Part shown: positions 44,939-56,140 of the stretch, one piece after another
Numbering within the stretch: the first letter of the stretch is position 1
Layout of the letters: each line of letters starts with the position of its first letter
Source: Methanomicrobium sp. W14
Lineage (GTDB): Archaea > Halobacteriota > Methanomicrobia > Methanomicrobiales > Methanomicrobiaceae
Reading direction: 5' to 3'
DNA length: 64,000 bases
Assembly (NCBI RefSeq): GCF_017875315.1
Contig: NZ_JAGGMM010000002.1
Span: 496,001-560,000, forward strand
Notes under the pieces: model-generated
Database searches by the model: none
The model's input: the letters and a program-made list of their open reading frames with translations, nothing else
Told to the model about the DNA's origin: nothing
Program-made: the position numbers and the translations under genes

Positions 44939-45745
44939 TTACAGATCTTCTATTTTTATGTTGTATTCTTTTATTACAAGCCTTTTTACTCCTGTAAAAT
45001 TATAGGTGTTCGAACCGTAGTCCCCGAAATTCCCGCCTGAAAATGAGTCCCCGGTAAGGTAGTTTTTCCATGCCGCCGAGAGGTCGTCTGAACTGTCAGG
45101 ACTGTAAGTAAGATATACCGGTACTGGACCTGTATTGTAACTCTCGTCAGTAACGGTGACGGGCTCACTGAGCATACTCATACGGACGTTTCCTATGCCG
45201 CTTAGTGAATAGTCCCTGTCAGCCGATATTTTTGTGAGGAGTATTACAAGCGTGCCTGCGGATTCGTCGTAATACCACCTCGGTTCTGCAACCATAACCG
45301 ATCCTTCCTGGAATTTCTGGCGTGAGAGGACTGCACCGTTCTCTATAGTATATACTGCGTCACCCTCACCCGAAGTGTATCTTAGGTAACCGGGGCTGAA
45401 CGTATAACTCTGTGAGTTGCCGGAGGAGTCGGGATAATCAAACATGAAGCTGTCTTTGGATTTTGAGGAATCAAAGGCGTCAAGAAAACCCCCTGAGACG
45501 CGTACTGCAAGGTCCCTGTAGGGAACGTTACTGTAGGTCAGTATCTTCATCTCGTTCTGCAAAGAGATCATGGTCTGCTCCATTGTCCTCTCGTCAGAGT
45601 TTATCTGCGACTGCAAAAGGAGCGGATACGCGTACAGAGTTACCATCGCAATCCCGGTAACCACGATTGAAAACATTATCAGAAATCCTATTGCTTCAGA
45701 TACTCCGCTTTCACTGTCAGTTCTTTGAAATTCTGTTCCTGCCAT
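44939..45745 (-). CDS. Pilin-like membrane-anchored protein (DUF7289-like), last gene of operon
   Basis: About 268 residues. A short polar N-terminus ending in SESG is followed by VSEAIGFLIMFSIVVTGIAMVTLYAYP, a pilin-like hydrophobic helix, and then a beta-rich outer domain with many Ser, Tyr and Asp residues. This fits haloarchaeal/methanogen DUF7289 proteins that occur with type IV pilus-like machinery. Its ATG overlaps the stop of the gene before it (ATGA), and GGAGGAGT supplies the ribosome binding site, so I prefer 45745 over a far upstream start at 45916 whose extra residues lie over the neighbour gene in another frame. Confidence 0.75.
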   Translation of the reverse strand: MAGTEFQRTDSESGVSEAIGFLIMFSIVVTGIAMVTLYAYPLLLQSQINSDERTMEQTMISLQNEMKILTYSNVPYRDLAVRVSGGFLDAFDSSKSKDSFMFDYPDSSGNSQSYTFSPGYLRYTSGEGDAVYTIENGAVLSRQKFQEGSVMVAEPRWYYDESAGTLVILLTKISADRDYSLSGIGNVRMSMLSEPVTVTDESYNTGPVPVYLTYSPDSSDDLSAAWKNYLTGDSFSGGNFGDYGSNTYNFTGVKRLVIKEYNIKIEDL

Positions 45746-46110
45746 CATACTCCTCCCGAGTCGTATGTAATTCTGTTTATGCCGGAGCCTGTGGTGTTTC
45801 CTGTAACCCCTCTTGTCGCCCCGATTCCGGCGATGGAAATTCTGCTCCTGATACTGCCGTCGGTTATGATGATTGTCTGGGACGCACCGGCCAGGTAAGG
45901 GTCCATTTTTACCCAATAATCTTTTCCGGCAACGTCATCCGGCAGGTCAAATTTAGTTGAAATTCTTCCTGTCTCGGGGGCGATGACGTATATGTCGACT
46001 ATCCTTGCACTTACTCCGTTTCCTATATCGACAAATGAGTGGTATTTCAGGGTGTTTGACGGGTTTTCAATAAGTGAGGTGTTTGTTACTATCATGACGA
46101 CGGTCAGCAT
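45745..46110 (-). CDS. Pilin-like protein with unclear start
   Basis: From the first canonical start (ATG 46110) it encodes 121 residues: MLTVVMIVTNTS, then an outer beta-rich domain with GYGRISTKF-like strands. However the same frame is open upstream to 46212 and encodes KRNNDEAVSTIVEYILITSVLVV, a clear pilin-like N-terminus (positions 46111-46179). No ATG, GTG or TTG exists in that extension; it has ATT at 46149 and ACG at 46152. The real protein therefore probably starts with a non-standard codon or by a +1 frameshift from the gene before it at CCAAAAAAGGAATAA. It overlaps the next gene by ATGA. Confidence 0.6.
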   Translation of the reverse strand: MLTVVMIVTNTSLIENPSNTLKYHSFVDIGNGVSARIVDIYVIAPETGRISTKFDLPDDVAGKDYWVKMDPYLAGASQTIIITDGSIRSRISIAGIGATRGVTGNTTGSGINRITYDSGGV

Positions 46111-46168
46111 GACAACAAGTACTGAGGTTATGAGAATGTACTCTACAATCGTGCTTACGGCTTCGTCG

Positions 46169-46552
46169 TTATTCCTTTTTTGGAAGAAGGTATGTTTCGT
46201 CGTATGATGTCACCCCGTTATTGTAGTGGATTACTGCTTCGGTATATGTATAGTATGAGTCAGAGTACCTGTTTTCTGTTATATTATACCATAAAACAGT
46301 GTCTTCCCTGTTCATTGCAAGATTCTGAAGGACTGTCATGTTTTCGGTTGTATCCCCGCCGTTTTCAGCGAGGTAGAGAATTTCAGCTCTAATGTCCTGA
46401 ATCTCTGATTTTGGAAATTCAAGTACACCTTCCGATGTCGTCTGTCCGACCATCACGGACTGGTTTATGATTATTGCGAGGAAGAATATTCCGACGCTTA
46501 TGATAAATCCCATCAGGACAATCCACTGTCCGTCGTCGTCTAGTCTCTCCAC
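46169..46552 (-). CDS. Pilin-like protein (DUF7261-like)
   Basis: A 127-residue protein starting with a charged MERLDDDGQW, then a hydrophobic helix IVLMGFIISVGIFFLAIIINQS (about 11-33) and an outer part. The DDxGQ-plus-helix start fits DUF7261-type proteins of haloarchaeal pilin-like clusters. It overlaps the previous gene by 13 bases and ends just where the reading frame of the next pilin-like protein begins, so translation is probably coupled. Confidence 0.65.
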   Translation of the reverse strand: MERLDDDGQWIVLMGFIISVGIFFLAIIINQSVMVGQTTSEGVLEFPKSEIQDIRAEILYLAENGGDTTENMTVLQNLAMNREDTVLWYNITENRYSDSYYTYTEAVIHYNNGVTSYDETYLLPKKE

Positions 46553-47070
46553 AGTAAAACCTCCAGCTTCAAAACTGTCTCCTTACCCTTCCAGTCGGCG
46601 GTCACGTATCTGCCGCAGCGGATAGCAGGACTTCTGCCCGGGTTATCGCCTTCACTGCTGTGCGCAAAAGGTACAGCCTTCACTGTTTTTGTTGTCTGGT
46701 CATAGTAGTATATTGTGGAGTTATACCTGAGAGAATTGACAAATGCTGTTGCTCCTGTGTTCATATCCAGGTAATTCTGAAAGGCGGAATTGAATTCAGA
46801 TGCGGCCGGCCCGTCCGGGTCGGAATTTCCGCTTGCATTGCTTATTATTGAAGAAAGAACGTTTCCTTCCGTGTATGTGTCTTTCGTATCCATCATCAGA
46901 AGTGCGTCATTTCCAAGCTGTTCCAGCTGCATGTCCGGGATGTGGACGTCTCCGGGTGTTAAGACCATACCTGTCCCAAGGACCACATATGCGGAGACAA
47001 GCATAATCACGGCTGCCGTCAGTCCTTCAATAGTATAAAGCTGTCCTGAACATGAGAGGCTTTTTACCAT
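46540..47070 (-). CDS. Pilin-like protein (DUF7288-like)
   Basis: A 176-residue protein with N-terminal SGQLYTIEGLTAAVIMLVSAYVVLGTG; the GQ...xEGLxAAxIM pattern is typical of DUF7288 proteins in haloarchaeal clusters of secreted pilin-like proteins. The outer domain is acidic and includes a likely disulfide or metal pair (CGRYVTADW). It overlaps both neighbours by a few bases, so it is in the middle of a tightly packed operon. Confidence 0.65.
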   Translation of the reverse strand: MVKSLSCSGQLYTIEGLTAAVIMLVSAYVVLGTGMVLTPGDVHIPDMQLEQLGNDALLMMDTKDTYTEGNVLSSIISNASGNSDPDGPAASEFNSAFQNYLDMNTGATAFVNSLRYNSTIYYYDQTTKTVKAVPFAHSSEGDNPGRSPAIRCGRYVTADWKGKETVLKLEVLLWRD

Positions 47071-48143
47071 ATGCAGACCTCCATAACTCCGTCTGTTAGG
47101 TACGGCTTGGTCATATACGGTGAATCATAGTCATAAGAGAAGTTTCCGCCAATCATTTTGACTGTTGAATTTTTCTTGATCTCATATTCAAGGTTTAATT
47201 CAACCGATACTGTTGACGTGATTTCGGATGAGAACATCAGGCTTGGAAGAATCGTAAAGCCGATGTCCGAAATGTTTTTGTCTTCAATGGCGGTCTCGTT
47301 ATAATTCATAGTGCGTGGGACGCCGTTTATTTTGTATATATACGAGCTGTTGTCAAAAGAATCATAAGCCATTGAGATTTTTGTACCGTCTTTAAGAAAC
47401 CGTGCATTTACAAGGTTTACAGTATAGTTGTCAGATTCAGATTCCAGACTTTTGCTCAGGTTGTAAATTCTGAATGTCACAGGCTCCGTCTTCGGGTCTA
47501 TCCTGTATTCGGCAGAAATGGTTTTGTCGTATAGAAGGGAGTAGTTGAACCTGCACTCGATTTTTTGTTCTATTTGCTTTGGAAACGATGATGACTTTAT
47601 ATTTTTGGTTGTATTCAGAAGGTCTGCCTGGATGTCAGCCGAGCTGTAATGTTTAATCTTTACAAGTCTCTTCATATACCCGTATCCTCCTTTCGGGACA
47701 GGCTCTCCGGCACAGAGAGTTGATGATGAACCGTCACGGAGGGATATATTGAACTGGTATCCAAAGTCTCCGAATATGGCTTTACTTCTGTATTCGTCTT
47801 CTGTAAAATTGAATTCAGTTGTACTGCTGAAGAATTTGTTAATCTTGTATGTCGAAAGTATATTTGGTGTCTGCGAAGATACGGAAAGTCCAAGCCTTTC
47901 TATTTCATCCTTGTGCTTTGAGTCTTTGAGCTCCCACGGAGTACCTGTCGGCCATCCCGGGTCTTCTGCAAGTATGACGGATGTTCTGTAAGAGACTGCG
48001 TCATAATCGACTGTAGAACTCTTTACATTAAGCAAAAGACCTGGGATCATGCTGATTACGAATATCAGGGCGACCAGAAATATTGTAAAGCCTGCAAGAA
48101 AGTCAACCGAAAGCATACCGGAATCATCGCTGACCGCCTTCAA
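47064..48143 (-). CDS. Large pilin-like surface protein (DUF7287-like N-terminus)
   Basis: A 359-residue protein. After MKAVSDDSGM comes LSVDFLAGFTIFLVALIFVISMIPGLLL, a pilin-like membrane helix with the D-F-AG-I motif seen in DUF7287. The outer domain (about 40-359) is beta-rich with many Asn-X-Ser/Thr sites, which fit archaeal N-glycosylation. It may be a major or tip-like subunit. Overlaps both neighbours by 4-7 bases. Confidence 0.65.
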   Translation of the reverse strand: MKAVSDDSGMLSVDFLAGFTIFLVALIFVISMIPGLLLNVKSSTVDYDAVSYRTSVILAEDPGWPTGTPWELKDSKHKDEIERLGLSVSSQTPNILSTYKINKFFSSTTEFNFTEDEYRSKAIFGDFGYQFNISLRDGSSSTLCAGEPVPKGGYGYMKRLVKIKHYSSADIQADLLNTTKNIKSSSFPKQIEQKIECRFNYSLLYDKTISAEYRIDPKTEPVTFRIYNLSKSLESESDNYTVNLVNARFLKDGTKISMAYDSFDNSSYIYKINGVPRTMNYNETAIEDKNISDIGFTILPSLMFSSEITSTVSVELNLEYEIKKNSTVKMIGGNFSYDYDSPYMTKPYLTDGVMEVCIW

Positions 48144-48769
48144 TTGATCACTTCCCCTGTATATGCGTCAATTTGTACTCCCTTTATGTCATCAGACTGC
48201 TCCGGAGTAATATAATATACTCCGTCTTCAAGAATTATGTAGAGCCTGTCGTCATATGACCTGTCAAACATCTCGTCAGTGTATCCTGCCTGTTTTTCCA
48301 GTATTTCAGACGGCATCATGACATCATCCGTCCTTATTGCGCTGTCGGGAAACGGACCGGGCCAGACCACTTCCTTAAGGCCTGAACTGCCGAGGTAGAG
48401 AAGAGTTGTGTTTTCCCCGTATTTTACACCGAATATCCAGGAATCTGCGTTCCCGTACCTGTTTACACCTGCACCTGCTATATTGGCAATCTGTATTTCA
48501 CTGTCTTTTGCGGCTACATGATACCCGGTTTCTTCTGCTCCCGGAAAATCCGGGTTTACAGACGAATACAGTTTATCCAGAGCTTCTTTAAGGGAGATGT
48601 TACCTGTTTCTGTTATGCTGCCATGGTCACCCGTGAGTGTAGCGTCTCCCAGAAGGGATATGTTTTGGGTAGTGTTTTGGCTGTTCTGGCTGACGCATGC
48701 ACACACAGTGCAGAAGCATATCATAAAAGCAGCCAGTATGAACGTTAATGCCCTTTTCAACAGAATCAC
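48140..48769 (-). CDS. Secreted lipoprotein-like protein, first gene of the pilin-like operon
   Basis: A 209-residue protein with a signal sequence (RALTFILAAFMICFCTVCAC; the end is a possible lipobox with a Cys near 25), an Asn/Thr-rich linker and a PepSY-like outer domain (ISLKEALDKLYSS, then VQIDAYTGEVIN at the end). It starts the operon of six overlapping genes. Family not firmly recognised; a role on the cell surface with the pilin-like proteins is inferred from position. Confidence 0.65.
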   Translation of the reverse strand: MILLKRALTFILAAFMICFCTVCACVSQNSQNTTQNISLLGDATLTGDHGSITETGNISLKEALDKLYSSVNPDFPGAEETGYHVAAKDSEIQIANIAGAGVNRYGNADSWIFGVKYGENTTLLYLGSSGLKEVVWPGPFPDSAIRTDDVMMPSEILEKQAGYTDEMFDRSYDDRLYIILEDGVYYITPEQSDDIKGVQIDAYTGEVIN

Positions 48770-56052: not shown

Positions 56053-56140
56053 AATTTATTTTTTATTTTTTCAGATGTTTTCCTACAAAATGATATATAT
56101 ATAATGCTATATATTCCAAATATACGTGGAGGGTTTTCAG

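Follow-up and report, generated by a model that had tools for sequence, protein, structure and literature searches.

A six-gene operon of the methanogen Methanomicrobium sp. W14 very probably encodes the pilins of a type IV pilus-like machine of the euryarchaea; to judge from sequence comparisons, these pilins would be assembled by a motor encoded elsewhere in the 2.54-Mb genome, on contig C1. In the mechanism that we propose, the short class III-type leaders of the prepilins g2 to g6 would be cut off by a PibD-type peptidase, the C1 ATPase and two TadC-like proteins would draw the mature pilins out of the membrane and pack them via their N-terminal helices, and the lipoprotein g1 would probably sit on the outer face of the membrane, where it may assist or anchor assembly. 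A system of this kind is already known in outline and has been little studied; what is described here is its unlinked pilin module and candidate motor in methanogens. The features concerned are the following ("the window" denotes the whole 64-kb stretch of DNA that was analyzed):

48769 to 44939, leftward (minus strand): six-gene operon of overlapping open reading frames in the 64-kb window
48140 to 48769, minus strand: g1, lipoprotein-like protein, 209 aa, GTG start, lipobox-type ...VCAC
47064 to 48143, minus strand: g2, DUF7287 pilin-like protein, 359 aa, TTG start; PF23958 with 43.1 bits (cut-off 27)
46540 to 47070, minus strand: g3, DUF7288 pilin-like protein, 176 aa, ATG start; PF23959 with 39.6 bits (cut-off 27)
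46169 to 46552, minus strand: g4, DUF7261-like pilin-like protein, 127 aa, GTG start; N-terminus conserved
45745 to 46203, minus strand: g5, DUF7266 pilin-like protein, about 152 aa; PF23928 with 36.6 bits (cut-off 27.6)
44939 to 45748, minus strand: g6, DUF7289 pilin-like protein, 269 aa, ATG start that overlaps the stop codon of g5; PF23960 with 49.2 bits (cut-off 27)
G000:C1:723964-729028 (locus L047): ATPase gene and two TadC genes, next to a prepilin peptidase gene

The operon is more than a chance arrangement of reading frames, as four of its six proteins score above the Pfam gathering cut-offs, its gene order is kept, and pN is low compared with pS. The order g1 to g6 recurs across 20 sampled relatives, a few of which have g1 missing or displaced, and a DUF1015 gene is usually near. 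DUF7289 is present in 57 of 60 relatives and DUF7288 in 155 of the 197 genomes of the phylum. For g2 to g6, comparison with the closest relative gave pN values of 0.12–0.27 against pS values of 0.65–0.83; because pN is low with silent sites near saturation, these genes appear to be under purifying selection. The original prediction of six leftward genes was thus sound, and the overlap of 1–13 bases that it gave for most neighbors holds for four of the five junctions. In the order g1 to g6 the overlaps amount to 4, 7, 13, about 35–38 and 4 bases, and the single one exceeding 13 bases arises because g5 is given its real 5′ end. As mechanically listed (45745–46110), g5 is truncated; its open frame extends to 46206 and includes the codons of a normal pilin N-terminus. 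No ATG, GTG or TTG is found in the 5′ end of g5 up to position 46206. At 46203–46201 (minus strand), where the closest relatives have ATG, the window reads ACG, a difference that is silent (Tyr) in the overlapping g4. This ACG may be a rare start codon, a mutation or a sequencing error. A lost G ahead of g5 was also considered as the cause of the missing start and was rejected, since the site of the relatives' ATG reads ACG in the window.

A pilin-like N-terminus, consisting of a short polar stretch, a G or A and a hydrophobic helix, was recognized by inspection and by rule in five genes, g2 to g6, and not in four as first proposed: the N-terminus of g4 (MERLDDDGQWIVLMGFIISVGIFFLA...) is pilin-like too. 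Outside the operon, the only pilin-like open reading frame of at least 100 aa that the simple rule returned in the window encodes a secreted-looking protein at 56126; the rule is loose, because the lipoprotein g1 passed it as well. The lipoprotein-like nature ascribed to the first gene is supported by the lipobox cysteine, which is present in g1 and nearly invariant among its orthologues. Identification of g1 as a PepSY protein was rejected, since the match of its C-terminus is weak (E=0.0093), lies below the curated cut-off and is shared by only one of 18 orthologues. As for the family assignments made beforehand, DUF7287, DUF7288 and DUF7289 were matched above cut-off, whereas DUF7261 emerged weakly and via orthologues of g4: g4 itself has no Pfam match above cut-off, and 10 of its 21 orthologues weakly match PF23922 (best E 0.0052). 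DUF7266, matched by g5 above cut-off, comes in addition to the families named in advance. An NCBIfam search of the operon proteins gave nothing useful, and the literature collection that was searched contained no papers naming DUF7288, DUF7287, DUF7289, DUF7266 or DUF7261. In the structure model of g6 (pLDDT 89), an N-terminal helix of 61 residues leads into a beta domain; the AlphaFold2 model of g2 (pLDDT 78.5), less well modelled than g6, likewise has an N-terminal helix and then a beta-rich domain. Comparison with solved structures yielded no convincing match for g6 (Foldseek, VIA-align) or for g2 (Foldseek), and a profile search with the g6 sequence retrieved no solved structure.

Some relatives carry variants of the pilin set. 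Several tandem copies occur in G171 (L113, L114) and G222 (L111), where long (about 320 aa) versions of the DUF7287 protein stand beside short ones (about 160 aa). In two further loci the DUF7266 protein carries a long fused extension (L118:6224-9133, 969 aa; L119:6675-9098, 807 aa), with the operon order the same.

There is no ATPase gene beside the operon, neither in the window nor in the 20 relatives. The earlier expectation that the core of the machine lies outside the window proved correct, its best candidate being located on another contig (C1, L047). The pilus-type ATPase, TadC and PibD peptidase genes for which a search of the genome had been proposed are all present, and neither a lack of such an ATPase nor matches of the operon proteins to unrelated families were encountered. 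Seven PF00437 (T2SSE) matches correspond to six secretion ATPases and one of the PIN-KH type, PF00482 matches reveal TadC/FlaJ-type membrane platform proteins, and a single A24 PibD-type prepilin peptidase is encoded (the 265-aa protein of L047, matching PF01478 and PF06847, Arc_PepC_II). The C1 locus comprises the genes for this peptidase, a 212-aa protein, a 1043-aa ATPase and two TadC proteins in succession, and it contains no pilin gene. Archaellin or pilin-like genes are found in the vicinity of the remaining five motor loci, which are the archaellum locus (L048), three loci with pilin-like genes alongside and one with an archaellin-family gene. In relatives, the gene order of the C1 motor is conserved and the locus is pilin-free. 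We regard the C1 locus as the most likely motor of the operon because it is pilin-free, because it co-occurs with g2, and because it is the only non-archaellum motor detected in three genomes that carry the operon (G012, G033 and G055).

Several observations were made on the motor loci in passing. A counterpart of the 212-aa protein (L047:8308-8946), for which there is no Pfam family, is encoded upstream of the C1 ATPase in most sampled relatives, and in L185–L187 the profile of the 212-aa protein matches a response-regulator-like protein (about 485 aa). In two genomes (G280:C1:1229614-1230552 and G281:C14:15613-16452) a stop codon breaks the second TadC gene. An archaellin-family gene (PF01917) at L052:6897-7472 lies near the genome's other clade 2-type ATPase/TadC pair, which is PilB3-like, and not in the archaellum locus.

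Co-occurrence was assessed across 135 Methanomicrobiales genomes, each at least 90% complete, with g2 (DUF7287) and the second TadC of the C1 motor as markers; the table was derived from two lists, and 13 g2-negative genomes were assigned by elimination. The pilin marker is present in 102 and the C1-type second TadC in 118 of the 135 genomes. Both occur together in 102 genomes, the pilin marker alone in none, the motor alone in 16 and neither in 17 (Fisher p 7e-13, not corrected for shared ancestry). These counts reflect few independent events, because the genomes are related and 12 of the 17 double absences fall into one genus. In G012, G033 and G055 the pilin operon is accompanied by a C1-type ATPase as the only one besides the archaellum-type ATPase (E≤1e-30; by elimination). 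The genomes with a C1-type motor and no detected DUF7287 gene include G031, G262, G263, G264 and those of genus g92 (G285–G291), in which the non-detection may reflect real loss, divergence or assembly gaps; some motor-only genomes, for example several of genus g13, may use other pilins.

In haloarchaea, genes of the DUF7287, DUF7288, DUF7266 and DUF7289 families are located directly behind those for a long PilB and a TadC, and the same pilin families also lie beside PilB-TadC genes in two f8 genomes. For the PilB4 locus of Haloferax volcanii, Makarova, Koonin and Albers (2016, PMC4858521) describe this layout, together with a pilin set belonging to the locus and an ATPase that bears additional terminal domains; from layout and the long ATPase, we infer that the haloarchaeal loci examined here correspond to this PilB4 locus. 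A group uniting the C1 ATPases with the haloarchaeal pilin-adjacent ones was not recovered in an ATPase tree built without rows L158, L174 and other long rows, nor was it rejected (p-AU 0.239). It is therefore the pilin families and the co-occurrence, and not the ATPase phylogeny, that support the link to PilB4. Several points count against the proposed pilin module and its pairing with the C1 motor: the two are unlinked in the host genome and in the sampled relatives, 16 genomes have the motor and no detected DUF7287 gene, the tree does not recover the C1 ATPase as the closest relative of the haloarchaeal pilin-adjacent ATPase, and neither pilin model convincingly matches a solved structure.

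With regard to the product, we consider a surface filament containing several low-abundance subunits more likely than a secretion pseudopilus. A lesser possibility, but one to be taken seriously, is that the five proteins would form a short pseudopilus that pushes cargo out in a manner resembling type II secretion and not an exposed pilus. That one operon combines a lipoprotein with several kinds of pilin-like protein is, by analogy, in keeping with such a structure, as is the fact that no obvious abundant major pilin is apparent among g2 to g6 by sequence; on the other hand, neither cargo nor a dedicated channel was found, and the published model of the related system is a pilus that has a predicted major pilin of its own (PMC4858521). 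Since a pseudopilus is a variant of the type IV pilus-like machine that we prefer, the confidences placed in these readings overlap.

It appears quite unlikely that the pilins are assembled by the other clade 2-type motor (ATPase at C2:360877, with a fused TadC, PilB3-like) or shared between motors. This motor has only one archaellin-family gene close by, and exchange of motors and pilin sets has been argued (PMC4858521); however, G012, G033 and G055 have the pilin operon without a C2-type motor at E≤1e-30, G175, G047 and G190 have a C2-type motor without these pilins, and in the tree the C2-type ATPase groups with haloarchaeal non-adjacent ATPases (96/94). That g2 to g6 are membrane-anchored surface proteins sharing just an N-terminal helix and unrelated to pilus assembly is highly improbable given their leader type, the PilB-TadC adjacency in haloarchaea and the co-occurrence with one motor, even though all matched Pfam families are labelled as being of unknown function and no ATPase adjoins the operon.

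On the proposed reading of the operon, five Pfam families of "unknown function", four firmly and DUF7261 weakly, become readable as pilin-like parts of one methanogen machine, with a particular motor, unlinked to the operon, as its likely partner. Hypothetical proteins thereby become material for testing, by gene deletion, how motors and pilins pair, a matter that the 2016 census did not settle. We consider it rather doubtful that the Methanomicrobiales version represents a distinct branch of type IV filament machines, in which a motor of two TadC proteins and the 212-aa partner would assemble five different pilins, led by a lipoprotein, into a heteropolymeric filament or pseudopilus with a job of its own.

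Among known systems, the archaellum belongs to the same type IV filament superfamily and shares class III-type leaders and an ATPase with a platform protein; it differs in that none of g1 to g6 matches the archaellin family PF01917 and in that the genome has a separate archaellum locus (L048). The PilA-based (PilB3) adhesion pili of Haloferax use an ATPase and TadC of the same superfamily and have pilins encoded away from the motor, but PilA-type pilins carry Pilin_N (PF07790), for which g6 reaches only 14.8 bits against a cut-off of 25.2 and the other operon proteins give no match. The PilB4-type system of clade 2 resembles ours in its multi-pilin set with its own ATPase/TadC module, and the families of that set are found here, DUF7287, DUF7288, DUF7266 and DUF7289 above cut-off and DUF7261 weakly through orthologues. 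In the haloarchaeal loci the pilins adjoin the ATPase/TadC genes, whereas here pilins and motor occupy separate loci; such adjacency is not universal, pilins encoded away from motors having been reported in the literature. Set against the PilB4-type system, the two TadC genes of the motor and the lipoprotein gene leading the operon are features of the system described here, and g2 has 359 aa as compared with about 150–200 aa in the sampled haloarchaea.
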